Below are positions 39,467-54,330 of a stretch of DNA of 64,000 nucleotides, in pieces. Under the pieces are notes generated by a model. The model did not search any database, was not told the DNA's origin, and saw only the letters and a list, made by a program, of their open reading frames with translations. The stretch is taken from the NCBI RefSeq assembly GCF_014109765.1, contig NZ_CP059139.1:3290001-3354000 (forward strand), read 5' to 3'. Numbering within the stretch: position 1 is the first letter of the stretch; each line of letters starts with the position of its first letter. The position numbers were made by a program, and so were the translations under genes. Source of the DNA: Pseudomonas berkeleyensis (GTDB taxonomy: Bacteria; Pseudomonadota; Gammaproteobacteria; Pseudomonadales; Pseudomonadaceae).

Positions 39467-40360
39467 TCAGATCTGATTCAGTTGCGTCTTGAGCAGATCA
39501 CGAAACGTCTGAATGAGGGGTTCACGTGTACGGCCGCGCCGCAGGATCAGCGAGAACGGTGCCTGGTAACCGAAGGTGGCGGGCAGCAGCACACGCAGCT
39601 TGCCCTGATCCACCCAGTGCTGGGCGTAGTGTTCCGGTAGATAGCCGATATAGGCGCCGGAAAGCACCAGAATCAGTTGTGCTTCCATCGACTCCACGGT
39701 CGCCGCGCTGTGCTTGAAACCGTGGCGTGCCAGCTCGGCCTGGCTCCAGTAGCCACGGCCAACCATGCGCTGCTGGGTGATCAGTTCTTCGGGTATCCGC
39801 CGCTGCTCGAACAGGGCATGCCGTTCGCTGCAGTACAGCCAATGCTGCTCACGGTACAGCGGCTGGTAGACCAGGCCGTTCATGCGTGTGGAGAAAGCGC
39901 CGATGGCCAGATCCAGGCGGTTGTCCAACACCGCCAGCTGCAGCTCGTAGGGGCTCATCACCGACAGGTGCATATGCACGCCTGGGTGCTCCTGGCTGTA
40001 GGCACCGATCACCTCGGCCAGCGGCAGGGCCGGGTCGCTGACGGTGGAGTCCAGCACACCGAGATTGAGCGTGCCGCGCAATTCGCCCTTGAGCGCCGCC
40101 GAGTAACGCTCGAAGCCCTCGAGCTCGCCAAGCAGGCGCAGGGTTTCCTGATAGAACAGCTCGCCCTTGCTGGTCAGGCTGAAGCCGCCACGACCACGAT
40201 GACAAAGCACGATGCCGAGCTGGCTTTCCAGCTGGCTCATGTAGGTGCTGATCGCCGAAGTGGACAGGTTCAGCTCCTGCTGCGCCGCGGCGAAGCCCTG
40301 GTGGCGCACCACGGCGACGAAGATCTTCAACAGTTTCAGGTCGGGCAAGGCGAAGGACAT
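39467..40360 (-). CDS. LysR-family regulator of the guanidino/amino-acid cluster
   Basis: A 297-residue LTTR. ATG 40360 is chosen because the helix-turn-helix begins directly after it (LKLLKIFVAVVRHQGFAAAQQELNLSTSAISTYMSQLE); the frame runs further upstream without homology. The effector-binding domain is about 90-297 (LNLGVLDSTVSDPALPLAEV...). It faces the ten-gene catabolic region, so it is the natural candidate for the protein that binds the twin palindromes at 40601 and 45956. In P. aeruginosa a LysR gene, gbuR, sits beside gbuA (from memory); this gene may be its counterpart, displaced by the inserted block, but orthology is not shown. Confidence 0.82.
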   Translation of the reverse strand: MSFALPDLKLLKIFVAVVRHQGFAAAQQELNLSTSAISTYMSQLESQLGIVLCHRGRGGFSLTSKGELFYQETLRLLGELEGFERYSAALKGELRGTLNLGVLDSTVSDPALPLAEVIGAYSQEHPGVHMHLSVMSPYELQLAVLDNRLDLAIGAFSTRMNGLVYQPLYREQHWLYCSERHALFEQRRIPEELITQQRMVGRGYWSQAELARHGFKHSAATVESMEAQLILVLSGAYIGYLPEHYAQHWVDQGKLRVLLPATFGYQAPFSLILRRGRTREPLIQTFRDLLKTQLNQI

Positions 40361-40429
40361 GAGGGCGCACGGCGGATTAACAGGGCGCCAGTGTAGCGCC
40401 ATACAAGCACCGTCGGCATCCAGAGCAGT

Positions 40430-40490
40430 GCAGCGTTTCAGAGCGGATTTATCCGCGAGTTTCGCGGTTGAAGCCGCTCTGAAACGCTGC
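40430..40490. repeat. Nested perfect hairpin, 17-base arms
   Basis: Arms GCAGCGTTTCAGAGCGG (40430-40446) and the exact reverse complement (40474-40490) enclose an inner hairpin CCGCGA-GTT-TCGCGG (40453-40467). It does not resemble the REP families. It could be a miniature element or a structured leader of the LysR mRNA. Confidence 0.75.
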
Positions 40491-40528
40491 CTAACTCCAC
40501 ACACTGACCTGCGAAACAATCAGTGCGC

Positions 40529-40582
40529 ACGGCGCACCCTACGGAACGGCGTTGGCTTGGTGGCCCGGATGAAATCCGGGGC
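40529..40582. repeat. Two half REP elements
   Basis: GTGCGCACGGCGCACCCTAC (about 40530-40549) is one arm of the GTAGGGTGCG family. GGCCCGGATGAAATCCGGGG (40562-40581) is part of the GTAGCCCGGATG family. Each lacks its partner. Confidence 0.6.
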
Positions 40583-40599
40583 AAGGCACGGAACATCGA

Positions 40600-40648
40600 T
40601 AGTTCAGTAATCACTGAACTAAGTATTTGCTCAACGCGATTTAATCCG
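40600..40648. promoter_or_regulatory. Candidate operator A of the LysR regulator
   Basis: Perfect inverted repeat TAGTTCAGT-AATC-ACTGAACTA (40600-40621), core TTCA-N8-TGAA, followed by AAGTATTTGC and CGATTT. The same layout and tail recur upstream of gbuA (45956-46003), with 32 of 48 aligned bases the same. Confidence 0.7.
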
Positions 40649-40773
40649 TTCGCGCGCTGAGCCAACAATGCAGCCATAACCAGGCACCGGCTCGAACCGG
40701 ACGCCATTTCGGGCGATACACCACGCCCCTTTGCCAATCTGCCGCTGACCTTCGCCCTCTCCAGGAGACGGCC

Positions 40774-41616
40774 ATGCGACTGGAAATCTTCCGCACCCTC
40801 TGGGGTTATCGCGGCAGTTGGCAGCAAGCGCTCGACGAAGCGCTCGGTGCCGGCTTCGACGGTATCGAAGCGCGCATCCCCGAGACGACCGCGCAACGCA
40901 GTGCAAATGCCCGCCTGCTACGCGAACAGAACGTCCCCTATATCGCCACCCTGTTCACTTCCACCCCGGTACTGCCGCGTCAGAGCGACAGCCCCCAGGC
41001 GCACCTCGAAGACCTGCGCAGAAAGCTCGACTGGGCTGCCGAACTCGAACCGCGCCTGGTCAACGTACTGCCCGGCAACGACCGCTGGGCACTGAGCGAA
41101 CAGGTCGACTTCTTCGCCCGTGCCGTCGAACTGGCAGATGCCAGTGGCCTGCACGTCTGCTTCGAGATTCATCGCGGCCGTTCGCTGTACAGCCCCTGGG
41201 TCACCCTCGACGTGATCCGCCAGGTGCCCGAACTGCGCTTTACCAGCGACATCAGCCACTGGCTGGTGACCTGCGAGCGCCTGCTGGACGACCCCACCGA
41301 TGACCTTTCCGCGTTCATCGAGCGGGTCGACCATATCCAGGCCCGCGTGGGCTACGACCAGGGCCCACAGGTGCCGCACCCCGGCGCACCGGAATACGCC
41401 GAGGTACTGGCCTTTCATCAGCGCCACTGGGAAAACATCTGGAGCAGCCAGGAAAAACGCGGCCTGCAGACCACCACCCTGACCCCCGAATTCGGCCCGG
41501 ACGGCTACCTGCATCACCTGCCCTTTACCGACGTGCCGGTGGCCGACCTGTGGCAGCTCAACCAGTGGATGGCGCGCTGCGAGCGCCAGCACTTCCACCG
41601 TTTCACCAGTCGCTGA
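40774..41616 (+). CDS. TIM-barrel sugar isomerase/epimerase-like protein
   Basis: 280 residues in the xylose-isomerase-like AP-endonuclease 2 fold. Pattern: MRLEIFRTLWGY...ALDEALGAGFDGIEARIPE; then VCFEIHRGRS, with a Glu and His at the barrel end; TSDISHWLVTCE; DHIQARVGYDQGPQVP; and LTPEFGPDGYL. The Glu, Asp, His and Glu in these segments fit the metal site of the family. Good ribosome site (AGGAG). It is the first gene of a run in which the next starts 10 bases after its stop. The substrate is unknown; members act on sugars, hydroxypyruvate, inosose or ketose derivatives. Together with the class II aldolase downstream it suggests processing of a hydroxylated product. Confidence 0.82.
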   Translation: MRLEIFRTLWGYRGSWQQALDEALGAGFDGIEARIPETTAQRSANARLLREQNVPYIATLFTSTPVLPRQSDSPQAHLEDLRRKLDWAAELEPRLVNVLPGNDRWALSEQVDFFARAVELADASGLHVCFEIHRGRSLYSPWVTLDVIRQVPELRFTSDISHWLVTCERLLDDPTDDLSAFIERVDHIQARVGYDQGPQVPHPGAPEYAEVLAFHQRHWENIWSSQEKRGLQTTTLTPEFGPDGYLHHLPFTDVPVADLWQLNQWMARCERQHFHRFTSR

Positions 41617-41625
41617 GGAGCCGTG

Positions 41626-42666
41626 ATGAACAACAAGGCCAAACATTTCACCGAAATCCCCGTGGTCGACATCGCCGGCCTGTTCAGCAGTGATCCGGCC
41701 GCACGCCTGGCCGTGGCCGAGAACCTGGGCCGCGCCGCACGTGACGTGGGCTTTCTCTACATCAGCGGCCACGGCATCGAGCAGGCACTGATCGACGGCC
41801 TGCACCGCGCCGCCGAGAACTACTTCGCCCAGCCGCTGGACGACAAGATGCGCCACTACATCGGCACCTCGGCTAGCCACAAGGGCTTCGTACCCGAGGG
41901 CGAGGAGCGCTACAGCGTCGGCAAGCCGGATCACAAGGAAGCCTTCGACATCGGCTTCGAAGTCCCCGCCGACAACCCGCTGGTGCTGGCCGGCACGCCG
42001 CTGCTGGGGCCCAACGACTGGCCAACCCTGCCCAATTTCAAGGAGGCGGTGCAGGCCTACTACGCACGCATCTTCCAGCTTGGCCGCACGCTGTTCCGTG
42101 GCTTCGCCCTGGCCCTCGGCCTGCCGGAAAACACCTTCGACGAGATGGCCAACTTCCCGCCGTCGAAACTGCGCCTGATCCACTACCCCTTCGATGGCGA
42201 CGCGCAGGACGCGCCCGGCATCGGCGCACACACCGACTACGAGTGCTTCACTATCCTGCTCGCCGACCGCCCGGGACTGGAGGTGATGAACGACCTCGGC
42301 CAATGGATCGACGCACCGCCGCGCGAGGGCACCTTCGTCGTCAACATCGGCGACATGCTCGAGGTGATGAGTGCCGGCACCTTCGTCGCGACCTCGCACC
42401 GCGTACGCAAGGTCAGCCAGGAGCGCTACTCGTTCCCGTTCTTCTATGCCTGCGACTACCACACGCAGATCCGCCCGCTGCCGCAGTTCGAAGCCGCCGG
42501 CCAGAGCTACGAGGCCATCAGCATCGGCGAGCACATGTGGAGCCAGGCGCTGCAGACCTACCAATACCTCAAGAAGCGCGTCGAGGACGGCCAGTTGCAG
42601 CTGCCCGAACGCGCCCGCCGGCCGTCCAGCTTCGGCCATCTGAAGCACCAGCCGAGCGCGCTGTGA
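41626..42666 (+). CDS. 2-oxoglutarate/Fe(II)-dependent dioxygenase, isopenicillin-N-synthase fold
   Basis: A 346-residue oxygenase. ATG 41626 is five bases after GAGGAG; a GTG at 41623 would be too close. Iron ligands are His202, Asp204 (AHTDYEC) and His258 (ATSHRV); Arg267 (ERYSFPFF) is placed to bind 2-oxoglutarate. The N-terminal DIOX_N part reads [10 protein letters not shown]...[12 protein letters not shown]. The family contains amino-acid and arginine/homoarginine hydroxylases and the ethylene-forming enzyme as well as antibiotic enzymes. Beside an amino-acid importer and guanidinobutyrase, hydroxylation of an amino or guanidino acid is a reasonable inference, but no specific substrate can be read from the sequence. 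P. aeruginosa PA4191, also next to an amino-acid ABC transporter, may be similar (from memory). Confidence 0.88.
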
Positions 42667-42721
42667 CTTTCCCCTATGTAGCCCGCTGCCAACACAAAAA
42701 ACTGATCCGGAGATAAGCACA

Positions 42722-43528
42722 ATGGCAACCCGTACCCCGCTGCGCACCACCGCCCTGGCCCTCACGTGCACCCTCGTTGGCCTGTTCGCCACCGCCCACG
42801 CCGCCGAAACGCCCAAGACCCTCGCCAGCGGCGAGCTGAAGGTGGGCATGGAGATTTCCTACCCGCCATTCGAATACTACGAAGGCGACAAGGTGCTCGG
42901 CTTCGACCCGGAAGTCTCGGCCGCTCTGGCCAAGCGCCTGGGCCTGACCGCCAGCTTCAGCGATATCAGCTTCCCCAACCTGATCCTCGGCCTCGACGCT
43001 GGCCGCTTCGACACCATCATTTCCGGCATGTACATCCTTCCCGAACGCCTGGAAAAAGCCGACGCCATCCCCTACGCCAAGACCGGTGCAGCGATCATGG
43101 TGCGCAGCGACGCCGAGAAAAAACCGGCCACTCCTGAGGAGCTGTGCGGCATGACCGTCGGCCTGCAACAGGGCACCTCGTGGATTCCGGCGCTGCAAAA
43201 AGTCTCCGACGGCTACTGCAAGGAACAAGGTGCCGGCGCGATCACCATCAACCAGTACCCGACCACCGCCGAAACCACCCAGGCGCTGCTCTCCGGCCAT
43301 ATCCAGGCACACCTGGAGATCGACGCCGCCTCGCTGCGCATCGTCGAACGCGCCAAGGGCCGTATCGCCATCAGCTCCAAGGGCTCGATCTACCCGCAGG
43401 TGCTGGGCATCTACGTGAAGAAAGGCAACGCCCAGTTGCTCGACGCCCTGAAAGCCGCGCTGGACGAGTTCAAGGCCAGCGGCGAGTACAGCGAGCTATT
43501 GAAGAAATACAACCTGGAAGAAGCCTGA
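42722..43528 (+). CDS. Periplasmic amino-acid-binding protein (SBP family 3)
   Basis: Ligand-capturing component of the ABC importer. 268 residues, signal peptide 1-27 (ending AHA). Family 3 features: LKVGMEISYPPFEYYEGDKVLGFDPEVS; FDTIISGMYILPERLEKADAIPYAK, with the Arg expected to hold the ligand alpha-carboxylate; and the HIQAHLEIDAAS segment with an Asp where family members bind the alpha-amino group. Two Cys (about 141 and 160) may form a disulphide. This suggests an amino-acid-like ligand, not free guanidine. GGAG precedes the ATG. A terminator-like hairpin follows and may lower expression of the permease gene. Confidence 0.9.
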   Translation: MATRTPLRTTALALTCTLVGLFATAHAAETPKTLASGELKVGMEISYPPFEYYEGDKVLGFDPEVSAALAKRLGLTASFSDISFPNLILGLDAGRFDTIISGMYILPERLEKADAIPYAKTGAAIMVRSDAEKKPATPEELCGMTVGLQQGTSWIPALQKVSDGYCKEQGAGAITINQYPTTAETTQALLSGHIQAHLEIDAASLRIVERAKGRIAISSKGSIYPQVLGIYVKKGNAQLLDALKAALDEFKASGEYSELLKKYNLEEA

Positions 43529-43591
43529 AGCCAACCCGTGGGTGAACCTGATGGCTCGCCCACGAACGCTACATGACATGACCGCTTCACC

Positions 43592-43629
43592 CCGCTGGCC
43601 GGTACTCGCTCCGGCCAGCGGCCTTTTTT
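43592..43629 (+). terminator. Terminator/attenuator between binding protein and permease genes
   Basis: Stem CCGCTGGCCGG (43592-43602) / CCGGCCAGCGG (43611-43621), 8-base loop, then six T within nine bases. It probably gives partial termination, so that the binding protein is made in excess. Confidence 0.85.
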
Positions 43630-43653
43630 CGGCTTGAGTCGCAGGTGCCCCAT

Positions 43654-45168
43654 ATGCCGTTCGAATGGAGCTATTTCTTCTCCCTGTTTTCCATGCCGGC
43701 CTTCTGGGCCGCGTGCTGGACGGTGGTAAAACTCAGTAGCCTGGCCTGGCTGCTCGGCCTGGCGCTGGGCTTTGGTCTGGCCAGTGCCAAGCAGGCCACC
43801 AGCCGCTGGCTCAGCGCACCGGCCGCGATCTACGTGTGGTTCTTTCGCAGCGTACCGCTGCTGGTACTACTGATCTTCGTCTACAACCTGCCACAGCTAA
43901 TCCCGGCCAGCGGCAAGGTGCTGTCGAATCCCTTCTATGCCGGCCTGTTCGCCCTGGTGCTGACCGAAGCGGCGTACATGGCGGAGATTCACCGTGGTGG
44001 CTTGTTGTCGGTGGCCAAGGGTCAGCGCGAGGCCGCCCGTGCCCTGGGTATCGGCCGGCTCGGCGCGCAACGGCTGATCGTGGTGCCGCAGGCCTTTCGC
44101 ATCGCCCTGCCGACGCTGACCAACGAGTACGTCACCATCGTCAAGCTGACCTCACTGGTCTCGGTGATCTCCCTCAGCGAGTTGCTGCTGGTCGGCCAGC
44201 GCCTCTACGCGCAGAACTTCCTGGTACTGGAAACCCTCGGCGCCGTGGCCGTGTACTACGTGCTGATCGTCAGCCTGTTCGGTTGGGGCCTGCAATATCT
44301 CGAACGCCACCTCGATCTTGGTCGACGCAAGCCGGGCACGCTCGTCGATGCCCAGGTAGTCGAGCTGCGCAGCGACCTGCCGCAAGTGACCGCCGGCAGC
44401 ACGCAGGTTCGCGAGCCCGGCGCCCCGGCAGCACTGCACCTGAGCAATATCCACAAGCACTACGGCGATCACCATGTGCTCAAGGGCATCGACCTGAGCG
44501 TGCAACCCGGCGAGGTGATTTCCATCATCGGCCCGTCCGGCTCCGGAAAGACCTCGCTGATCCGCACCATCAACGGCCTGGAAAGCATCGACGAAGGCGA
44601 GATCGTGCTGTTCGGTGAGGCCTTCATCCGAGCCGGCGACCGTCCCGAGAACCGTCGCCAACGCGAAGGTGTACGGCGCATCGGCATGGTGTTCCAGAGT
44701 TTCAACCTGTTCCCGCACCGCACCATTCTCGACAACGTCCTGCTCGCGCCGCGCTACCACGGCCTGGGCGATGCTGCCGAACTGCGTCAGCAGGCTCTGG
44801 CCCTGCTGGACAAGGTCGGCCTGCTGGCCCACGCCAACAAGTACCCGCACCAGCTCTCCGGCGGCCAGCAGCAGCGTGTGGCCATCGCCCGCGCCCTGGC
44901 GATGAAACCGGACATCATGCTGTTCGACGAGCCCACCTCGGCGCTCGACCCGGAACTGGTGGGCGACGTGCTCGCGGTGATTCGCGACCTGGCCCGCGAG
45001 GGCATGACCATGCTCATCGTCACCCACGAGATGGACTTTGCCCTGTCGATTTCCGACCGCGTGCTGTTCATGGAAAACGGCCATGTCCAGCTCGACGCCT
45101 CACCCGAGGCCATCCGCACCGGCAATCACGAACGCGTACGCCGCTTCATCGGCCTGGAGAACGCATGA
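43654..45168 (+). CDS. Amino-acid ABC importer with permease and ATPase fused
   Basis: 504 residues from ATG 43654 (GTG 43645 also possible). Residues 1-225 are a HisM/GlnP-type permease with about five TM helices and the EAA loop (EAAYMAEIHRGGLLSVAKGQREAARALG). Residues about 250-504 are the ATPase: Walker A GPSGSGKTS, Q-loop VFQSFNLFPH, signature LSGGQQQR, Walker B IMLFDEPTSALD, H-loop VTHEMDF. Most relatives encode these as separate proteins; here one chain carries both and would work as a homodimer. The stop overlaps the aldolase start by four bases. Confidence 0.92.
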   Translation: MPFEWSYFFSLFSMPAFWAACWTVVKLSSLAWLLGLALGFGLASAKQATSRWLSAPAAIYVWFFRSVPLLVLLIFVYNLPQLIPASGKVLSNPFYAGLFALVLTEAAYMAEIHRGGLLSVAKGQREAARALGIGRLGAQRLIVVPQAFRIALPTLTNEYVTIVKLTSLVSVISLSELLLVGQRLYAQNFLVLETLGAVAVYYVLIVSLFGWGLQYLERHLDLGRRKPGTLVDAQVVELRSDLPQVTAGSTQVREPGAPAALHLSNIHKHYGDHHVLKGIDLSVQPGEVISIIGPSGSGKTSLIRTINGLESIDEGEIVLFGEAFIRAGDRPENRRQREGVRRIGMVFQSFNLFPHRTILDNVLLAPRYHGLGDAAELRQQALALLDKVGLLAHANKYPHQLSGGQQQRVAIARALAMKPDIMLFDEPTSALDPELVGDVLAVIRDLAREGMTMLIVTHEMDFALSISDRVLFMENGHVQLDASPEAIRTGNHERVRRFIGLENA

Positions 45169-45887
45169 ACGACATCGCCACCTTGCGCCGCGACCTGGCC
45201 GCGGCCTACCGACTGGCCGCCCTGTTCGGCTGGGACGACACCCTCTACACGCACTTCTCCGTGCGCCTGCCCGGCGACGGCGAGCCGCGCTTTCTTATCA
45301 ACCCGTTCGGCCTGTTCTTCGAGGAGATTCGCGCCAGCGACCTGATCGTGGTGGACATGCATGGCAAGGTGGTCGAGGGCAACGCCGACTACAACGTCGC
45401 CGGTTTCACCATCCACAGCGCCGTGCACATGGCCCGCGACGACGCCCACTGCGTGATCCACACCCATACCCTGGCCGGTATGGCGGTGGCCGCGCAGGAT
45501 AACGGCCTCTTGCAGCTCAACCAGATCAGCACCGAATTCCACGGGCGCCTGGGCTATCACGCCTACGAAGGCGTGGCGCTGGATCTGGACGAGCGAGTGC
45601 GCATCCAGGCCTCGCTGGGCGACAACATCGCCCTGCTGCTGCGCCACCACGGCCTGCTCAGCGTCGGCGCCAGCGTCGCCGATGCCTTCTACGTCATGCA
45701 TTACCTGAACCGCGCCTGCGAGATCCAGCTCGCCGCCACCGGCGGTGGCCAGCCCTGCAGCGAGATTCCCGCGCACCTGGCGCAACACGCCTGCGAGCAA
45801 CTACAGGGCGCCGAATGGCAACGCCAGCTGATCTGGCAAGCCTGGCTGCGCAAGCTCGATCGACTCGATCCCAGCTACCGGCAGTAG
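45165..45887 (+). CDS. Class II aldolase/adducin-family protein
   Basis: 240 residues. Zinc-dependent fold shared by fuculose-phosphate aldolase, ribulose-5-phosphate 4-epimerase and decarboxylating relatives. Motifs: GWDDTLYTHFSVRLPG; INPFGLFFEEIRASDLIVVD; the zinc His pair in CVIHTHTLAGMAVAA; and the third His in LLRHHGLLSVG. The family needs an acid residue after the first motif; Glu in FFEEI is a candidate. It is translationally coupled to the ABC importer (ATGA), so it probably acts on the imported compound or a product of it. A retro-aldol step after hydroxylation by the dioxygenase is one hypothesis. Confidence 0.88.
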   Translation: MNDIATLRRDLAAAYRLAALFGWDDTLYTHFSVRLPGDGEPRFLINPFGLFFEEIRASDLIVVDMHGKVVEGNADYNVAGFTIHSAVHMARDDAHCVIHTHTLAGMAVAAQDNGLLQLNQISTEFHGRLGYHAYEGVALDLDERVRIQASLGDNIALLLRHHGLLSVGASVADAFYVMHYLNRACEIQLAATGGGQPCSEIPAHLAQHACEQLQGAEWQRQLIWQAWLRKLDRLDPSYRQ

Positions 45888-45952
45888 GCTACGCCGTGCC
45901 TATCACGACCCTCTTCACCACAACAGAACACAGCTGGCATGGGGCTTCCAGC

Positions 45953-46003
45953 CTTACTTCAGGTATTCGTGAAGTAAGTTTTTGCCCCAGCCGATTTTTC
46001 CCA
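45953..46003. promoter_or_regulatory. Candidate operator B of the LysR regulator, upstream of gbuA
   Basis: Inverted repeat CTTACTTCA-N8-TGAAGTAAG (45953-45978), core TTCA-N8-TGAA as in site A, followed by AAGTTTTTGC and CGATTT. It ends about 55 bases before the gbuA start. Confidence 0.7.
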
Positions 46004-46057
46004 GCGTCTGGCCGGTCAAGACTCCGGCCACAACCAGAACGAGCCTGAGGCCTACCC

Positions 46058-47017
46058 ATGGACAAGACCTTCCACCAGCCCCTGGGCGGCAATGAAATGC
46101 CCCGCTTCGGCGGCATCGCCACCATGATGCGCCTGCCGCACATCCAGAGCCCCGAGGAAAAACGCCAGCTCGACGCTGCCTTCGTCGGCGTGCCACTGGA
46201 CATCGGCACCTCGCTGCGCTCCGGCACCCGCTTCGGCCCCCGCGAGATCCGCGCCCAGTCGGTGATGATCCGCCCGTACAACATGGCCACCGGCGCCGCC
46301 CCCTTCGACTCGCTGAACGTGGCCGATATCGGCGACGTGGCGATCAACACCTTCAACCTGCTCGACGCCGTACGCATCATCGAAGAGGCCTACGACGAGA
46401 TCGTCGAACTCGGCATCAAGCCGCTGACCCTGGGTGGCGACCACACCATCACCCTGCCGATCCTGCGCGCCCTGCACAAGAAGTACGGCAAGATCGGTCT
46501 GGTGCACGTCGATGCCCACGCCGACGTCAACGATCACATGTTCGGTGAGAAGATCGCCCACGGCACCACCTTCCGCCGCGCCCAAGAGGAAGGCCTGCTC
46601 GACAGCGAGCGCGTGGTACAGATCGGCCTGCGCGCCCAGGGCTACACCGCCGAGGACTTCAACTGGAGCCGTAAACAGGGTTTCCGCGTGGTGCAGGCCG
46701 AAGAGTGCTGGCACCAGTCGCTGGCGCCGCTGATGGCCGAGGTGCGCGAGAAGGTCGGCGGCGGCCCGGTGTACCTGTCCTTCGACATCGACGGCATCGA
46801 CCCGGCCTGGGCGCCCGGCACCGGCACCCCGGAGATCGGCGGCCTGACCACCATCCAGGCCATGGAGATCATCCGTGGCTGCGACGGCCTGGATCTGATC
46901 GGCGGTGACCTGGTCGAGGTCTCGCCGCCCTACGACACCACCGGCAATACCTCGCTGCTCGGCGCCAACCTGCTGTACGAGATGCTCTGCGTACTGCCCG
47001 GCGTGAACAAACGTTGA
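46058..47017 (+). CDS. gbuA: Guanidinobutyrase GbuA
   Basis: Hydrolyses 4-guanidinobutyrate to 4-aminobutyrate and urea in arginine/agmatine-type catabolism. 319 residues, the size recalled for P. aeruginosa GbuA (PA1421), with closely matching N-terminus (HQPLGGNEMPRFGGIATMMR). The three ureohydrolase metal motifs are present: GGDHTITLP, HVDAHADVND and SFDIDGIDP, supplying the binuclear Mn centre. A palindromic site (45953-45978) lies upstream. The NTF2-like gene starts nine bases after its stop. Related agmatinases and the Ni-dependent guanidine hydrolase share the fold, but the overall similarity and neighbours favour GbuA. Confidence 0.94.
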   Translation: MDKTFHQPLGGNEMPRFGGIATMMRLPHIQSPEEKRQLDAAFVGVPLDIGTSLRSGTRFGPREIRAQSVMIRPYNMATGAAPFDSLNVADIGDVAINTFNLLDAVRIIEEAYDEIVELGIKPLTLGGDHTITLPILRALHKKYGKIGLVHVDAHADVNDHMFGEKIAHGTTFRRAQEEGLLDSERVVQIGLRAQGYTAEDFNWSRKQGFRVVQAEECWHQSLAPLMAEVREKVGGGPVYLSFDIDGIDPAWAPGTGTPEIGGLTTIQAMEIIRGCDGLDLIGGDLVEVSPPYDTTGNTSLLGANLLYEMLCVLPGVNKR

Positions 47018-47025
47018 GGCTCGCC

Positions 47026-47436
47026 ATGGACATCCAGGCCCAGGTACTGGAGGCCGCCAGCACACTGGTGGCCGCCTTCGCCGCGAACGACAGCGATGCC
47101 TACTTCGCCGCCTTCAGCACCGATGCCAGCTTCGTTTTCCACACCAGCGAACAGACCCTGTCCAACCGCGCGGCCTACCGCCAGTTGTGGGACAGCTGGC
47201 AGCGCGACGGCATGCGCGTGCTGGCCTGTCGCTCGCTCAACCCGCGGGTGCAGGTGCTCGGCGACAACGTGGCGCTGCTGTGCCACGACGTCATCCCCCG
47301 CCTGCACCTCGCCGACCAGGACGTCGAGAGCCACGAGCGGGAGACCATTGTCTTTCGCCGAGAACACGAAAACGCCCCATGGCTTGCTTGCCATGAACAT
47401 CTGTCGGCCATGCCGCAACCCCTGCCGCCCACCTGA
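47026..47436 (+). CDS. NTF2-like (DUF4440/SnoaL-type) protein
   Basis: 136 residues from ATG 47026, with TTGAGG just upstream overlapping the gbuA stop. The alpha+beta cone fold is suggested by AASTLVAAFAANDSDAYFAAFSTDASFVFHTSEQTLSNRAAYRQLWDSW and the C-terminal strands ESHERETIVFRREH. No catalytic assignment. The same position is held by PA1420 in the P. aeruginosa gbu cluster (from memory), so it is a conserved accessory of guanidinobutyrate use, perhaps a small-molecule binding or isomerising protein. Confidence 0.8.
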   Translation: MDIQAQVLEAASTLVAAFAANDSDAYFAAFSTDASFVFHTSEQTLSNRAAYRQLWDSWQRDGMRVLACRSLNPRVQVLGDNVALLCHDVIPRLHLADQDVESHERETIVFRREHENAPWLACHEHLSAMPQPLPPT

Positions 47437-47456
47437 ACCGGCGCTGGAGATCGATC

Positions 47457-48977
47457 ATGCACAACAACAATAATGACGCTCAACACATCACCCGCATCGA
47501 AACCTTCGGCATCGAACAGATTCCCGAGCAGGCACGTCACGCTGGGCCACTGGATCTGTTCCGGCTGATCTTCGGCGGCGCCAATACTTTCGCCACAGCG
47601 GTGCTCGGCAGCTTTCCGGTACTGTTCGGCCTGTCCTTCCAGGCCGGCTTCTGGGCCATCCTGCTCGGTGTCGTCGCCGGTTCGCTGATCCTCGCGCCGA
47701 TGGGCCTGTTCGGCGCCCTCAACGGCACCAACAATGCGGTTTCCTCGGGCGCCCACTTCGGCGTGCACGGGCGCATCATCGGCTCCTTCCTCTCGCTGCT
47801 CACCGCCGTGGCCTTCTTCTCGCTGTCGGTGTGGAGCTCGGGCGATGCCCTGGTCGGCGGCGCCAAACGCCTGCTCGGCCTGCCGGAAACCGACCTGACC
47901 CTGGGTCTAGCCTACGGTCTGTTCGCCGTGCTGGTACTGGCGGTATGCATCTATGGCTTTCGCTTCATGCTGTGGGTCAACAAGGTCGCCGTGGTCAGCG
48001 CCAGCCTGTTGTTCCTGCTCGGCATCGCCGCCTTCGCCGGGCCCTTCGACCTGCACTACGCTGGCAGCCTCGGCCAGGACGATCCGGGCTTCTGGGCCGC
48101 CTTCCTCGGTGCCGCGCTGATCGCCATGAGCAACCCGGTGTCGTTCGGCGCCTTCCTCGGTGACTGGTCGCGCTACATTCCCAAGCACACCGCCAAGTCG
48201 CGCATCATGACTGCGGTGATCGGCGCACAACTCGGTACGCTGATTCCCTTCGTCTTCGGCCTGGCCACCGCCACCATCGTCGCCGTCCAGGCGCCGCAGT
48301 ACATCGAGCAGAACAACTACGTCGGCGGCCTGTTGGCCATCGCCCCGGTCTGGTATTTCCTGCCGGTGTGCCTGATCGCGGTGATCGGCGGCATGTCCAC
48401 CGGCACCACCGCGCTGTACGGCACCGGGCTGGACATGTCGAGCATGTTCCCGCGAGTGCTGAGCCGAGTACGCGCCACCGTGCTGATCGGCCTGGCAGCT
48501 ATCGCCTTCATCTTCATCGGCCGCTTCGCCGCCAACCTGGTGCAGAGCGTGTCCACCTTCGCCGTGCTGATCGTCACCTGCACCAGCCCGTGGATGGTGA
48601 TCATGATCCTCGGCCTGATCGTGCGCCGTGGTTTCTATTGCCCGGACGATCTGCAGGTGTTCACTCGCGGCCAACGCGGCGGACGCTATTGGTTCCACCA
48701 CGGCTGGAACTGGCGCGGCCTTGGCGCCTGGATTCCCAGTGCGGCGCTGGGCCTGTGCTTCGTCAATCTGCCGGGGCAGTTCGTCGGTCCGTTCGGCGAA
48801 CTCGCTGACGGTATCGACATCAGCCTGCCACTGACCCTGGGCATGGCCGCCGTGCTCTACCTCGCCCTGCTCAACCTGTTCCCGGAACCGGCCAGTGTCT
48901 ACGGGCCGGCCGGCGCACGTTGGGTTCGTTCGCCAGACAGCGTCGCGCCCGGCCTGAAGGATGCCGAAGCCGCCTGA
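47457..48977 (+). CDS. NCS1-family (cytosine/purine permease-like) transporter
   Basis: 506 residues with about twelve TM helices. NCS1 features: GPLDLFRLIFGGANTFATAVLGSFPVLFG near the start and the NNAVSSGAHFGVHGRIIGS and SFGAFLGDWSRYIP motifs. NCS1 members take up nucleobases, hydantoins or vitamins with H+ or Na+. Here, in the PA1419 position of the gbu cluster, the cargo may be 4-guanidinobutyrate or a related cation. Starts 20 bases after the NTF2-like gene, so in the same operon. Confidence 0.88.
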   Translation: MHNNNNDAQHITRIETFGIEQIPEQARHAGPLDLFRLIFGGANTFATAVLGSFPVLFGLSFQAGFWAILLGVVAGSLILAPMGLFGALNGTNNAVSSGAHFGVHGRIIGSFLSLLTAVAFFSLSVWSSGDALVGGAKRLLGLPETDLTLGLAYGLFAVLVLAVCIYGFRFMLWVNKVAVVSASLLFLLGIAAFAGPFDLHYAGSLGQDDPGFWAAFLGAALIAMSNPVSFGAFLGDWSRYIPKHTAKSRIMTAVIGAQLGTLIPFVFGLATATIVAVQAPQYIEQNNYVGGLLAIAPVWYFLPVCLIAVIGGMSTGTTALYGTGLDMSSMFPRVLSRVRATVLIGLAAIAFIFIGRFAANLVQSVSTFAVLIVTCTSPWMVIMILGLIVRRGFYCPDDLQVFTRGQRGGRYWFHHGWNWRGLGAWIPSAALGLCFVNLPGQFVGPFGELADGIDISLPLTLGMAAVLYLALLNLFPEPASVYGPAGARWVRSPDSVAPGLKDAEAA

Positions 48978-49047
48978 GTACAGCCTACGCCTCGCAAAAC
49001 GGGCGCACTGCGCCCGGATTCACTCCCAGAAGAAAGAGAACAAGATC

Positions 49048-50427
49048 ATGATCCTGGATATTTCCGTTGTCTTCATTTATGCCGCCTGCATGCTGCTCCT
49101 GGGCTGGTACGGCATGCGCCGTGCCCGCAATCAGGAGGATTACCTGGTGGCCGGGCGCAACCTCGGCCCGGCCTTCTACATGGGCACCATGGCCGCCACC
49201 GTGCTCGGCGGCGCGGCCACCGTCGGTACCGTACGCCTGGGCTACGTGCACGGCATTTCCGGCTTCTGGCTGTGCGCCGCGCTGGGCGCGGGCATCATCG
49301 TGCTCAACCTGTTCCTGGCCAAACCGCTGCTCAAGCTGCGCATTTTCACCGTCACGCAGATTCTCGAGCGCCGCTACACGCCGATGGCGCGCCAGGCCAG
49401 CGCAGTGGTGATGTTCACCTACGCCCTGATGATCGCCGTGGTCTCCACCCTGGCCAGCGGCACCGTGCTGCAGGTGCTGTTCGACCTGCCCTTCTGGGCA
49501 GCCATCCTGCTCGCCGGCGGCGTGGTGGTGGTGTACTCGAGCATCGGTGGCATGTGGTCGCTGACCCTGACCGATATCGTCCAGTTCGTGATCAAGACCG
49601 TCGGCCTGATGTTCGTGCTGCTGCCGATCTGCCTGTACCGCGTCGGCGGCTGGGACGAGTTGGTGGCCAAGCTGCCGGAAACCGCCTTAAGCCTGACCAC
49701 CATCGGCTACGACACCATCCTCACCTACTTCCTGATCTACTTCTTCGGCATTCTCATCGGCCAGGACATCTGGCAACGCGTGTTCACCGCCCGCAGCGAA
49801 GGCGTGGCCCGCGTGGCCGGGAGCATGGCCGGCGTGTATTGCGTGATCTACGGCCTGGTTGGCGCACTGATCGGCATGTGCGCCAAGGTGCTGCTGCCGG
49901 AACTGGAAAACGCCAACAACGCCTTCGCCGCCATCGTCCAGAACGCCCTGCCCGACGGCATCCGTGGCCTGGTGATCGCCGCCGCCCTGGCCGCGATGAT
50001 GTCCACCGCCAGCGCCGGCCTGCTCGCCGCCTCCACCACCGTGACCGAAGACCTGCTGCCGAAACTGCGCGGCGGCCAGGCCTCCAGCCTCGGTATGGCA
50101 CGTCTGTTCACCCTGCTCACCGGCCTGCTGGTGCTGGCCATCGCGCTGGTGGTCAACGACGTGATCGGTGCCCTGACCCTGGCCTACAACCTGCTGGTCG
50201 GCGGCATCCTGATCCCGATCCTCGGCGCCATCTACTGGAAGCGCGCCACCACCACCGGCGCCATCGCCAGCATGGTGCTGGGCTGCGCGACGGCCATGTC
50301 GTTCATGTTCAAGGACGGTCTGGAGGCCAATACACCGATCTACTACAGCCTGGCCGTCGGCCTGCTCGCCTTCGTCATCGGCAGCCTGTTGACCCGACCG
50401 CAGGCGCGAGCAACCCGCCTCGCCTGA
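49048..50427 (+). CDS. Sodium:solute symporter (SSS) family transporter
   Basis: 459 residues from ATG 49048; the frame also opens at 48961 inside the previous gene's end but lacks homology there. About thirteen TM helices in the LeuT-like fold. Typical SSS parts: GWYGMRRARNQEDYLVAGRNLGPAFYMGTMAATVLGGAATVGTV; the TM8 region VIAAALAAMMSTASAGLLAASTTVTEDL, holding the Ser/Thr that bind Na+; and IPILGAIYWKRATTTGAIASMVLG. It is the second transporter in the gbu block (PA1418 position). Which of the two carries guanidinobutyrate cannot be said. Confidence 0.88.
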   Translation: MILDISVVFIYAACMLLLGWYGMRRARNQEDYLVAGRNLGPAFYMGTMAATVLGGAATVGTVRLGYVHGISGFWLCAALGAGIIVLNLFLAKPLLKLRIFTVTQILERRYTPMARQASAVVMFTYALMIAVVSTLASGTVLQVLFDLPFWAAILLAGGVVVVYSSIGGMWSLTLTDIVQFVIKTVGLMFVLLPICLYRVGGWDELVAKLPETALSLTTIGYDTILTYFLIYFFGILIGQDIWQRVFTARSEGVARVAGSMAGVYCVIYGLVGALIGMCAKVLLPELENANNAFAAIVQNALPDGIRGLVIAAALAAMMSTASAGLLAASTTVTEDLLPKLRGGQASSLGMARLFTLLTGLLVLAIALVVNDVIGALTLAYNLLVGGILIPILGAIYWKRATTTGAIASMVLGCATAMSFMFKDGLEANTPIYYSLAVGLLAFVIGSLLTRPQARATRLA

Positions 50428-50498
50428 GCAGCTAACCTCAACCCTGGGTGCCGGCAACGCAAGCCGGCACCTCGACTCCTCATCACAAGGAACCCGCG

Positions 50499-52100
50499 AT
50501 GACCACCTGTGGAGAATTCCTCGTCAAGCAACTCGAAGCCTGGGGCGTCGACACCGTCTTCGGCATTCCCGGCGTGCATACCGTCGAGCTCTATCGCGGC
50601 CTGCCGGCCAGCGGCATCCGCCATGTCACCCCACGTCACGAGCAAGGCGCGGGCTTCATGGCCGATGGCTATGCACGGGTCAGCGGCAAGCCAGGCGTAT
50701 GTTTCATCATCACCGGGCCGGGGATGACCAATATCCTCACTGCCATGGGCCAGGCCTACGCCGACTCGATCCCGATGCTGGTGATCTCCAGCGTCAACGA
50801 ACGCGAACGCCTCGGGCTCGGCAAGGGTTACCTGCATGAGCTGCCCAACCAGCGCGCCATGACCGCCGGCGTCACCGCCTTCAGCCATACCCTGATGAGC
50901 GTCGAGGAGCTGCCTGCAGTGTTGTCTCGCGCCTTTACCGTATTCGAAGGTGAGCGGCCGCGCCCGGTGCACATCGAGCTGCCGCTGGACATCATCACTG
51001 CCGACGCCTCGCACATGGCCCTGGCGCCGCGCCCGACCGTGCGTCGCCCCGCCCCCAACCGCACGCTGATCCGTGAGGCGGCCGGGCTGCTCAAACAGGC
51101 CGAACGCCCGTTGCTGCTGCTCGGTGGTGGTTGCGTCGCAGCCGAAGCCGAGGCACGCGCCCTGGCCGCCGTGCTGGATGCACCGACGGCGCTGACCATC
51201 AACGCCAAGGGCCTACTGCCACCCGCCCATCCGCTGTTGCTCGGCAGCAACCAGTCGCTGCGGCCCGTACGGGATCTGGCGCTGGAGGCCGATGTGGTGC
51301 TGGCCATTGGCACCGAACTGGGCGAGACCGATTACGACGTGGTGTTCGACGGCGACTTTCGTCTGCCCGGCCGCCTGATTCGCATCGACATCGACGGCCA
51401 GCAACTGCAGCGTAACTTCACTCCACACCTGGCGATCCAGGGCGATGCACGCCTGGCCATGCGCATGCTGCTGGCCGAGTTCGACCCACGCCAGGCCAGC
51501 GCCAACAGCCCAGGCGCCCAGCGCACCGCGGCCGTGCAGAAACGTCTGGGCGAGGATTTCAGCGGCTGGGCGCACTACCGCCAGTTGTTCGACTGCATCC
51601 TCGATACCCTGCCCGATGCGCGCTTCGTCGGTGATTCGACGCAAACCGTGTACAGCGGCAATCACCTGGTGGAGCTGGACGGTGCGCGACGCTGGTTCAA
51701 CGCCTCTACCGGCTACGGCACTCTCGGTTACGGCCTGCCGGCCGCCATCGGCGCCAAGCTGGCCGAACCGCAACGCCCGGTGATCAGCCTGATGGGCGAC
51801 GGCGGCGTGCAATTCACCATTGCCGAGCTGGCCAGCGCAGTCGAAGCCAGGGTCGGCATCATCGTCTTGCTGTGGAACAACAGCGGTTACGGCGAGATCA
51901 AGCGCTACATGCAGCGCCGTGACATCACTCCGATTGCCGTCGACATCTACACCCCGGATCTACTGGCCATCGCCCGCGGCTTCGGCTGCGCCGCCGAGCG
52001 CGCACGGGATCACGCGCACCTGGCCGAGTTGCTGCGCCAGGCGCCTACGGATAGACCGCTGCTGATCGAAATAATGGAAGAAGCACCGTTTCACCCCTGA
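50499..52100 (+). CDS. ThDP-dependent 2-ketoacid decarboxylase (5-guanidino-2-oxopentanoate decarboxylase-like)
   Basis: 533 residues from ATG 50499 (AAGGA upstream). Full acetolactate-synthase-like fold: the N-terminal Pyr domain with catalytic Glu in PRHEQGAGFMADGYAR, central domain (about 190-330), PP domain with GDGGVQFTIAELASAVE and NNSGYGEIK (GDG-to-NN cofactor motif). AruI, a relative, decarboxylates 2-ketoarginine to 4-guanidinobutyraldehyde, one oxidation before the GbuA substrate. This gene is in the PA1417 position, so that role fits the operon, but it may act on another branched or guanidino 2-ketoacid. No aldehyde dehydrogenase is nearby. Confidence 0.88.
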   Translation: MTTCGEFLVKQLEAWGVDTVFGIPGVHTVELYRGLPASGIRHVTPRHEQGAGFMADGYARVSGKPGVCFIITGPGMTNILTAMGQAYADSIPMLVISSVNERERLGLGKGYLHELPNQRAMTAGVTAFSHTLMSVEELPAVLSRAFTVFEGERPRPVHIELPLDIITADASHMALAPRPTVRRPAPNRTLIREAAGLLKQAERPLLLLGGGCVAAEAEARALAAVLDAPTALTINAKGLLPPAHPLLLGSNQSLRPVRDLALEADVVLAIGTELGETDYDVVFDGDFRLPGRLIRIDIDGQQLQRNFTPHLAIQGDARLAMRMLLAEFDPRQASANSPGAQRTAAVQKRLGEDFSGWAHYRQLFDCILDTLPDARFVGDSTQTVYSGNHLVELDGARRWFNASTGYGTLGYGLPAAIGAKLAEPQRPVISLMGDGGVQFTIAELASAVEARVGIIVLLWNNSGYGEIKRYMQRRDITPIAVDIYTPDLLAIARGFGCAAERARDHAHLAELLRQAPTDRPLLIEIMEEAPFHP

Positions 52101-52488: not shown

Positions 52489-54207
52489 TCAAATGACCGG
52501 ACTTTTGCGCCGGTATGGGAACACGTCGATCACCTTGCCCGCCCGAATCGCCTCCTGCAAGCCCTTCCAGTAGTCGGCGTCATACAGATTGCCGTGCAGT
52601 TGGCTGAACAGGCGACGCTGCTTGATATCGGCGAACAGAAAGGGCGGAAACTCCTCCGGGAACACATCCATCGGCCCCACCGAGTACCAGGGCTCGGAGC
52701 TCATTTCGTCCTCGGGGAAACGCGGCGGCGGAATGTGGCGGAAATTCACCTCGGTGAGAAAACAGATCTCGTCGTAATCGTAGAACACCACGCGACCATG
52801 ACGGGTAACGCCGAAGTTCTTCAGCAGCATGTCGCCGGGGAAAATATTCGCCGCCGCCAGTTGCTTGATGGCCAGGCCGTAATCCTCCAGCGCCTCACGT
52901 ACCTGGGCGTCGTTGGCGCTGTCCAGATAGAGGTTGAGTGGGGTCATGCGCCGCTCGGTCCAGCAATGGCGAACCAGCACGGTATCGCCCTCCACCACCA
53001 CGGTCGAGGGTGCCACCTCGAGCAATTCGGCCAGGCACTCCGGCTCGAACTTGGCCTTGGGGAAACGGAAGTCGGAGAATTCCTGGGTGTCCGCCAGTCG
53101 CCCCACGCGATCGACACTTTTCACCAGGCGGTACTTCTCGATCACCGTGTTGCGATCCACCGTCTTGGCGTGGGCAAACCGATCCTTGATGATCTTGAAC
53201 ACCGTATTGAAGCCCGGCAGCGTAAATACGCTCATCACCATGCCGCGCACACCGGGGGCCATGATGAAACGATCGTCGGTGGTCGCCAGATGGCCGATCA
53301 AGGCGCGGTAGAACTCCGACTTGCCGTGCTTGTAGAAACCGATCGAGGTGTACAGCTCGGCGATGTGCTTGCCCGGCAGAATGCGCTTGAGGAAGCCGAC
53401 GAACTCCGCCGGGATGGCCACGTCCACCATGAAGTAGCTACGAGTGAAGGAGAAGATGATCGACACCTCGGCCTCGTCGGTGATCACCGCATCGGCCTGG
53501 ATGCCATGGCCCTCCTGGTGCAGCAGCGGAATTGCCAGCGGCCATTGCTCGTCACGGGTGTACAGACGACCTACCAGGTAGGCGCCCTTGTTGCGATAGA
53601 GCACCGAGGAGAACAGCTCGATACACAGTTCCGGATCCTTGCAGATCCAGTCCGGCAGGCTGGCACGCAATTGCGTCTCCAGGCGCTGCAGGTCACGCGG
53701 CAGATCCTCGTAAGGCACGTCGAAACGGTAATCTTCGAAGATCGCCTGCAAGGCCTGGCCCAATTCCCCCATGGGTCGATAGCTGCGCGTCTGCGCGGCT
53801 GATGGATGGCTGCGCAACGAGGGTCGGGTGGTATGGATGAACATGCAGCCATCACTGATCAGGTCATGGCTGAACAGGCTGCAGAAGATCGAGTTGAACC
53901 AGGTTTCCGCCAGTTCGTCATCGAAACGCAGGTCGATCAGGGCGATATAGGCGCTCTTCACCAGCGGCCACTGCGCCACCTCCAGTAGCGCCGCATCGAA
54001 GCCCTGGCCCAGCCGCTCACGGGTTTGCGCGACCTTTTCCTCGTACAGATTGATCCGCGCGGCCGAAGCGCGCTGCGCCTCCTGCCACTGCGCCTGCTCG
54101 AAGCGGGCGCGCGCACCGTCGGTGATCTGGCGAAAATGTTCGCGATAATCGTCGAAACCATCGAGGATCAAGCGGGCGATTTCGCCAGCCGGCCATTGTT
54201 GCCCCAT
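52489..54207 (-). CDS. aceK: Isocitrate dehydrogenase kinase/phosphatase AceK
   Basis: Switches isocitrate dehydrogenase off by phosphorylation to send carbon into the glyoxylate shunt during growth on acetate or fatty acids, and also dephosphorylates it. 572 residues from ATG 54207, the usual length (570-580). Regulatory domain in the N-terminal half; kinase-like C-terminal half with [24 protein letters not shown] segment, [10 protein letters not shown] loop equivalent ([27 protein letters not shown]), and the metal/catalytic part [33 protein letters not shown]. The gene is monocistronic with its own REP upstream. Confidence 0.95.
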
Positions 54208-54263
54208 ATGAATGCCCTGCTGTGCAATGAGTGAACCGAGCTTAGCCGCAAAGCCAACAAAAC

Positions 54264-54330
54264 GTAGCCCGAATGTAATCCGGGGAAGGCTCCGCACCGT
54301 AAAACCGCTCCCGGATTGCATCCGGGCTAC
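54264..54330. repeat. REP element (GTAGCCCGGATG family) upstream of aceK
   Basis: GTAGCCCGAATGTAATCCGG and the complement of CCGGATTGCATCCGGGCTAC form the arms. It lies between the divergent aceK and EamA genes. Confidence 0.8.

Follow-up and report, generated by a model that had tools for sequence, protein, structure and literature searches.

Organization of the locus

The stretch of DNA analysed here, referred to below as the window, comprises 64,000 nucleotides of Pseudomonas berkeleyensis (contig NZ_CP059139.1, positions 3,290,001 to 3,354,000), and we focused on eleven genes between positions 39467 and 52100 in which a guanidinobutyrase operon stands beside an uncharacterised importer-oxygenase block. 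An initial annotation, made from the sequence alone, had claimed these eleven genes, and all were found where it had placed them. A GbuR-like regulator of the LysR family is encoded on the reverse strand (lysR, 39467..40519, likely true start near 40360) and is transcribed away from the first block. This block runs on the forward strand from 40774 to 45887 and encodes a triosephosphate isomerase (TIM)-barrel protein (tim, PF01261, 40774..41616), a 2-oxoglutarate (2OG)/Fe(II) dioxygenase (diox, PF14226 and PF03171, 41623..42666), the substrate-binding protein (SBP) of an ATP-binding cassette (ABC) importer (sbp, SBP_bac_3, 42722..43528), a permease-ATPase fusion belonging to the same importer (43645..45168) and a protein of the class II aldolase/adducin family (ald, 45165..45887). 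The successive intergenic gaps measure 6, 55, 116 and −4 bases. A terminator-like hairpin on the forward strand between sbp and the permease gene (43592..43621), one of 14 such sites in the region against 6.9 expected, may partly attenuate the first block. No NCBIfam model covers the TIM or the dioxygenase protein.

After a gap of 170 bases, which holds a separate putative operator, the second block follows on the same strand (46058 to 52100). It consists of gbuA, for a guanidinobutyrase of the arginase family (46058..47017), and of genes for an NTF2/SnoaL-like protein (ntf2, 47014..47436), an NCS1-family transporter (ncs1, 47457..48977), an SSS-family transporter (48961..50427) and a thiamine diphosphate (ThDP) enzyme of the 5-guanidino-2-oxopentanoate decarboxylase family (thdp, NF005712, 50448..52100). 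GbuA matched the guanidinobutyrase of PDB entry 3nio over its whole length (1-319) with 656 bits, against only 323 bits for guanidinopropionase, and the ThDP protein scored 855.9 bits with NF005712 (cut-off 500). The second half matches what we take to be the gbu gene order of P. aeruginosa, PA1417-1421. Neither a tRNA gene nor, at standard thresholds, an Rfam match was found in the window. A riboswitch over the first operon was considered and rejected: it gave no Rfam match, and a lax search returned only weak unrelated matches (best E 0.054). The next gene downstream (52489-54321, reverse strand) resembles, by eye, an AceK-type isocitrate dehydrogenase kinase/phosphatase.

The core block is repeatedly linked to gbuA

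Among 149 sampled genomes of the genus, 34 (the carriers) encode a dioxygenase with an identity of at least 72%. The surroundings were read for 25 of these carriers in addition to the window; eight others have gbuA and the dioxygenase on different contigs. Because matches to the TIM, dioxygenase, SBP, permease and ATPase proteins occurred together in all 25 contexts, we define tim, diox, sbp and the ABC genes as the core and the aldolase gene as an optional member. The core adjoins the gbu genes in 7/34 carriers; in the other carriers with contexts read it lies apart from them, often beside recD, and in P. nitroreducens-type genomes it is found near a divergent ThDP gene (59-60%) and no gbuA. 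All 34 carriers have gbuA, as against 99/115 other genomes (p 0.02), but this co-occurrence says little because the gene is near-universal in the sample (133/149).

We also scanned named genomes with a TIM alignment and analysed the best 80 of 416 TIM loci (L100-L179), in which TIM is present by construction; some loci of the analysis are one genome under two names, and the neighbour calls, here as in the 25 contexts and the core loci below, rest on identity, length and E-value filters by which diverged genes can be missed. Among these best 80 loci, gbuA was found within ~10 kb in 36, a ThDP gene in 36, either of the two in 38, a LysR gene beside gbuA or tim in 34, and recD in 29; L136 and L175 (contig end) gave no dioxygenase match. 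An aldolase match was present in 27 and lacking in 53. The aldolase, to which the initial annotation had given a step in the pathway, is in this respect optional. Unlinked core copies recurrently have recD as their insertion place (L041 and other loci of L138-L179).

At least five different gene orders place the two blocks side by side; they occur in Pseudomonas, Stutzerimonas, Salinicola, Klebsiella and two further families and span at least two bacterial orders. The arrangement lysR / tim-diox-sbp-ABC-(ald)-gbuA-...-thdp is that of the window, P. sediminis, P. composti, P. chengduensis, P. flavescens and others, and a second one, lysR / gbuA-(ntf2)-ncs1-tim-diox-sbp-ABC-thdp followed by an optional aldehyde dehydrogenase (ALDH) gene, occurs in P. 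viridiflava, P. cichorii, P. triticifolii and Stutzerimonas kirkiae. Stutzerimonas nosocomialis has gbuA-tim-diox-sbp-ABC-ald-thdp and Salinicola peritrichatus has tim-diox-sbp-ABC-gbuA-NCS1-ALDH. The fifth order, lysR / gbuA-tim-diox-sbp-ABC-ald-2-hydroxyacid dehydrogenase, was found in G304 (L080), in G678 (L191, last gene by eye) and in Klebsiella pneumoniae CP125156 (L188). Co-occurrence of both blocks with the same LysR in other genomes, proposed earlier as a check, was found in several gene orders and genera. A tree of 58 dioxygenases was computed by a quick method, with long branches flagged and the Klebsiella, Kozakia, G678 and L192 rows left out. Its 21 gbu-linked rows fall on one side of one branch (SH-like approximate likelihood ratio test, SH-aLRT, 82, short of the starred level), so that a single origin of the linkage, followed by its survival through rearrangement, is possible.

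Only 2 of 72,556 plasmid records cover >80% of the query, both labelled Klebsiella and one of them chromosome-sized, and plasmid cargo as a general rule was rejected on this count. In E. coli, 16/5,426 genomes matched, none over >80% of the query, and the matches listed cover ~1% of it, in ABC ATPase genes. A class-wide search of 274 genomes returned the own genome and G678 alone at E <= 1e-130. A Klebsiella pneumoniae plasmid (NZ_MN823990.1, L189) bears a gbuA-core set with reading frames fragmented into several pieces; other copies of the set are intact. A plasmid of Kozakia baliensis (L190, 1-10418) carries a core-type dioxygenase and TIM protein with an aldolase, a GhrA-like dehydrogenase, a protein like arginine deiminase or dimethylarginine dimethylaminohydrolase (ADI/DDAH-like) and a TonB receptor; neither gbuA nor the operator described below was seen in it.

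A common operator precedes both blocks

Comparison of the lysR-tim, lysR-gbuA and ald-gbuA gaps revealed a shared element, aTAGTTcAG-N6-CTGAACTAAgTATTTGC followed by a CGATTT-like end, of which the window holds copies at 40600 and 45953. The first putative operator (40600..40644, forward strand) lies ~174 bases 5′ of tim and contains the palindrome TAGTTCAG-N6-CTGAACTA; the second (45953..45998, forward strand), with CTTACTTCA-N8-TGAAGTAAG, lies ~103 bases 5′ of gbuA. The palindrome is preserved in the second operator because its two arms deviate from the first by matching changes. The neighbouring LysR protein would be the one that binds the predicted operator. With as many as two mismatches allowed, the pattern matched the own genome at just these two places, and the reversed control matched it at one. 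The element was also present in the lysR-gbuA gap of 6/6 block-free relatives tested (L089-L093 and L096); in L089 and L090 lysR directly adjoins gbuA.

With a matrix of 45 columns built from 47 unique sites, the region upstream of tim scored 11 to 60 in 65/65 unlinked core copies, as compared with −15 for the best of 71 upstream regions in a shuffled control. Six of the 71 loci had no operator upstream of tim. In two of them (L120 and L121) it stands instead upstream of gbuA, with scores of 63 and 66; L088, L097 and L098 are clusters of other types, and L133 (Salinicola) is a true exception. The lysR-gbuA gap scored 41 in Klebsiella, 45 in G678 and 50 in G304, and in Stutzerimonas (L120, L121 and L130) the element upstream of gbuA scored 59-66.

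A looser exact pattern was searched in 70 Pseudomonas genomes, namely the 34 carriers, 16 genomes without gbuA and 20 with gbuA only. It gave 67 sites in 48 genomes, of which 64 lie just upstream of gbuA (40) or tim (24); two of the three others precede ntf2-ncs1-ALDH sets, and the third precedes an NCS1-like gene accompanied by a nitrilase-like one (by eye). There was no site in the 16 genomes without gbuA, and the reversed pattern had none in the 70 genomes. The tim site was found in 24 of the 34 carriers, the gbuA site in 23, both in 16 and none in 3. At L184 (5152-7519, genome G073) one copy of the operator precedes genes which, by eye, encode a different NCS1-like and a nitrilase-like protein; this would be a possible further member of the regulon.

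Since the operator is shared by the promoters of the two blocks, also in unlinked copies, it is well supported that both probably form one regulon in most carriers seen, even where they lie far apart. The word regulon had been a guess of the initial annotation, and the common operator bears it out. The gene set LysR, gbuA, NTF2-like, NCS1, SSS and ThDP decarboxylase is that of the gbuR-gbuA regulon of Pseudomonas, for which we presume the details of P. aeruginosa; unlike there, a second promoter with the same operator here precedes the core block. That the blocks are accidental neighbours, brought together by a mobile insertion between gbuR and gbuA, appears highly improbable. The many unlinked copies beside recD do indicate that the block moves, and gbuA is so common in the genus that it offers a frequent neighbour; yet the operator is common to the blocks at a distance and the linkage held through all the rearrangements described above, and a chance neighbourhood was rejected on these two grounds.

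The dioxygenase is a relative of methylguanidine hydroxylase

In October 2025 a dioxygenase-lyase pair, MgdH and MgdL, was described that demethylates methylguanidine (PMC12508155). MgdH of Vreelandella boliviensis hydroxylates methylguanidine and N,N-dimethylguanidine, and MgdL cleaves N-(hydroxymethyl)guanidine, which is unusually stable, by means of an Asp and an Arg that lie two residues from each other; the carriers named belong to halophilic genera only (PMC12508155). A dioxygenase paralogue at 1704445 of the own genome (L057) has 55-56% identity to the window enzyme. Its surroundings (L057 2579-14910; C1, ~1697600-1709900) form a guanidine carboxylase cluster with an MgdH/MgdL-like pair, here in Pseudomonas: next to the dioxygenase lie an MgdL-like protein, UAAP1, a carboxylase that matches TIGR02712 with 1879 bits and a TIGR03427 binding protein, and the cluster has three Gd-I riboswitches and one Gd-II. 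The active-site Asp and Arg of MgdL are kept in 12/12 sequences (the L057 neighbour and 11 homologues). By context and kinship, rather than by direct comparison with the Vreelandella sequences, this paralogue is probably MgdH. A third paralogue (43-44%; L061 9506-18800; C1, ~1229800-1239100) lies beside a BMP-family binding protein, an amidohydrolase which by eye is 8-oxoguanine deaminase-like and a nucleoside-type ABC importer.

The window enzyme has the iron ligands H203, D205 and H259 together with R268 and S270. The iron ligands, the 2OG-binding R268 and the pair E94-E95 were invariant in 107/107 core rows, which hold 99 distinct sequences, and the same residues, E94 and E95 included, were fixed in 13/13 MgdH-type rows (50-62% identity). 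The two groups differ in the pocket: the core rows invariably show K87, Y97, K182, A309 and Y313, where the MgdH-type rows show S or R, mostly F, Q, T and F, respectively. The core residues recur in Klebsiella, Kozakia, G304, G678 and Salinicola; those of L192 are the MgdH-like ones, as are most of those of L088. By eye, E95 aligns with what we take to be the guanidinium-holding Glu of the ethylene-forming enzyme. K182, two residues before R184, could reach the carboxylate of a larger substrate.

In the tree the window dioxygenase falls into a separate clade (43 rows, SH-aLRT 100), and the MgdH-type rows stand outside it, not as one group. The ethylene-forming enzyme and the homoarginine and arginine hydroxylases share the 2OG/Fe(II) dioxygenase fold, but the match is far weaker: the MgdH-type paralogues gave 404 bits and the P. 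savastanoi ethylene-forming enzyme structures ~83 bits. A reading as ethylene-forming enzyme was rejected, since bit scores and tree place the MgdH-type kinship closer. The likeness to these enzymes suggested by the initial annotation thus gives way to one with methylguanidine hydroxylase-type enzymes.

Besides family, iron site, R268 and E94-E95, the core and MgdH/MgdL systems have in common a dedicated partner enzyme adjoining the dioxygenase and a guanidino theme. They differ in that the core has a LysR operator, no guanidine riboswitch or carboxylase nearby, an amino-acid-type importer, and a TIM barrel in the place of MgdL. Among 16 guanidine-type dioxygenase loci, MgdL was present in 13, a TIM barrel in 2, neither in 1 and both in none; in 112 core loci, which are not independent and in which the TIM barrel is present, a filtered neighbour search found MgdL in 0. 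On a Paraburkholderia sprentiae plasmid (L192 8120-18652), a TIM-dioxygenase pair immediately precedes UAAP1-UAAP2-carboxylase-atzF, with Gd-I and Gd-II riboswitches and no MgdL.

Substrate class and the fate of the guanidino group

In an alignment of 108 rows with its relatives, the SBP keeps R109 and E44, which in arginine and glutamine binders presumably hold the carboxylate and the cationic side chain. I200 stands in the Asp column of AncQR, presumably that of the alpha-amino group; this Ile is conserved in no fewer than 95% of the 108 rows and has E199 beside it. Because Ile replaces this Asp, a plain amino acid is less likely as ligand and a guanidino acid would be likelier; import of an amino or guanidino acid, as first proposed, would to this extent be narrowed to its second half.

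The filter used found no guanidine-degrading genes (gca, UAAP1 or guanidine SBP) in the 112 core loci. The hydrolase near the core is instead one that acts on a guanidino group on the chain, GbuA or, in Kozakia, the ADI/DDAH-like protein. From these two observations, it would fit that the guanidino group is still in place after the core has acted.

The same genes might nevertheless serve a shunt for an unmodified guanidino acid such as 4-guanidinobutyrate, in which the chain carbon next to the guanidine nitrogen is hydroxylated and a split aided by the TIM protein gives guanidine and a semialdehyde, parallel to GbuA. We judge this unlikely. Related enzymes, the ethylene-forming enzyme and plant homoarginine-6-hydroxylases, are reported to attack the same type of carbon (PMC12508155; PMC12186494); the SBP would suit a guanidino acid without alpha-amino group, and in L192 the TIM-dioxygenase pair sits inside a guanidine carboxylase operon. 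In a comparison aimed at ruling out guanidine release, the urea/guanidine carboxylase family proved to be enriched among carriers (27/34 vs 57/115 others, p 0.003, phylogeny uncontrolled), which also fits release of free guanidine; the family includes true urea carboxylases that could serve the urea of GbuA. The shunt, however, would place two redundant routes under one switch, neither guanidine genes nor a guanidine riboswitch lie near the core, and 7/34 carriers have no carboxylase above the cut-off.

A non-guanidino substrate within the same regulon, the block being just a nitrogen-scavenging companion of the gbu genes, is clearly improbable. It draws on the breadth of the aldolase, SBP and ABC families and is opposed by the MgdH kinship with the invariant E94-E95, by the ADI/DDAH-like neighbour in Kozakia and by an operator nearly exclusive to gbuA-type and tim promoters.

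The TIM-barrel protein and its possible role

The TIM protein has both a xylose-isomerase-like fold and an E/D/H/E metal-type site (E131, D159, H187 and E239). A PDB sequence search with its profile returned one weak match, Art22 (E 0.00037); Art22, tagatose/ribulose 3-epimerases and IolE share 11-17% identity with it, and it differs from them in having an oxygenase as gene partner. TIM homologues (48%) also occur beside a FA_desaturase-family protein and an NMT1-type ABC importer (L097 9497-14210 and L098 5795-9826). This neighbour, assigned by Pfam in L097 and by appearance in L098, is a second kind of oxygenase paired with TIM; the L097 protein scored 31 bits against the GntB arginine hydroxylase model (cut-off 380). 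A GhrA-like dehydrogenase of Klebsiella and Kozakia matched NF012013 below its cut-off, and G304 and G678 have a similar gene.

The epimerase/isomerase fold lends itself to another scheme, in which the first operon turns a guanidino or amino acid into a stable hydroxy acid by hydroxylation on the chain, TIM isomerises it, and the aldolase and a 2-hydroxyacid dehydrogenase finish the route as in sugar-acid pathways, GbuA acting on a by-product or related compound. The joint presence of aldolase and GhrA-like dehydrogenase in Klebsiella, G678, G304 and Kozakia, and of the aldolase in about a third of the best named loci, speaks for it. The lack of an aldolase match in the other two thirds does not, nor does the TIM barrel of guanidine-type clusters without an aldolase, and we give this scheme the same low probability as the guanidine shunt.

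Discussion

We tentatively favour, at somewhat under an even chance, a module for the oxidative processing of modified guanidino acids, within a single GbuR-type regulon made up of two neighbouring operons. What the sequence itself shows is the gene content, the operator common to both promoters, the linkage retained across genomes, the kinship with MgdH and the intactness of the iron and metal-site residues. On this basis we propose which class of substrate is used, which carbon is attacked, that TIM acts as a lyase and in what order the steps run. The ABC importer of the first operon would take up a guanidino acid with an extra group on a guanidine nitrogen, and the dioxygenase would hydroxylate the carbon bound to that nitrogen with 2-oxoglutarate and O2. 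The TIM-barrel metalloenzyme, the proposed hemiaminal lyase, would split or rearrange the product, as MgdL does for N-(hydroxymethyl)guanidine, and the freed guanidino acid would pass to GbuA. In the second operon, the ThDP decarboxylase is expected to convert 2-ketoarginine to 4-guanidinobutyraldehyde, and GbuA to convert 4-guanidinobutyrate to 4-aminobutyrate and urea. The earlier proposal of an importer-oxygenase block with a guanidino theme that feeds the guanidinobutyrase block is in this form plausible.

In a more specific version, N-(hydroxyalkyl)guanidines would have in the TIM barrel another lyase, not homologous to MgdL, and the regulon would be a first route dedicated to oxidative removal of guanidine-N substituents from guanidino acids, be they N-methyl or N-carboxymethyl as in arginine-derived glycation products. 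We consider this rather unlikely. One may speculate that glyoxylate is then the fragment released, to be taken by the GhrA-like dehydrogenase of Klebsiella-type carriers.

Several observations weigh against the modified-guanidino-acid module. MgdH is inactive on N-monomethylarginine (NMMA) and asymmetric dimethylarginine (ADMA) (PMC12508155). The fold of TIM is shared with epimerases and isomerases, no hemiaminal lyase is among the matches listed, and the aldolase, like the 2-hydroxyacid dehydrogenase of some carriers, has no clear place in the scheme. Salinicola is linked but has no operator in 19 kb (best score −22.8), nor has Kozakia (best score −3.3), and 44/80 named core copies are unlinked to gbuA. 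The carboxylase enrichment among carriers belongs here too.

GbuA, its operon and the superfamilies were already known, as have been MgdH and MgdL since 2025. In the open-access literature we found no account of the core, of the operator, of the tie to gbuA or of a TIM-barrel partner of an MgdH-type enzyme. A known urea-releasing set and an uncharacterised importer-oxygenase set under what seems to be the same switch point to an undescribed use of modified guanidino compounds as food. The locus would represent a larger, LysR-controlled branch of the MgdH enzyme line, tied to the use of 4-guanidinobutyrate in Pseudomonas, Stutzerimonas, Salinicola and Klebsiella, whose regulon is delimited by a conserved operator. 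From this reading of the locus follow a short list of substrates and predictions at the level of single residues (K182 and Y97), and in its TIM-barrel partner a hemiaminal lyase of a new type may have come to light.

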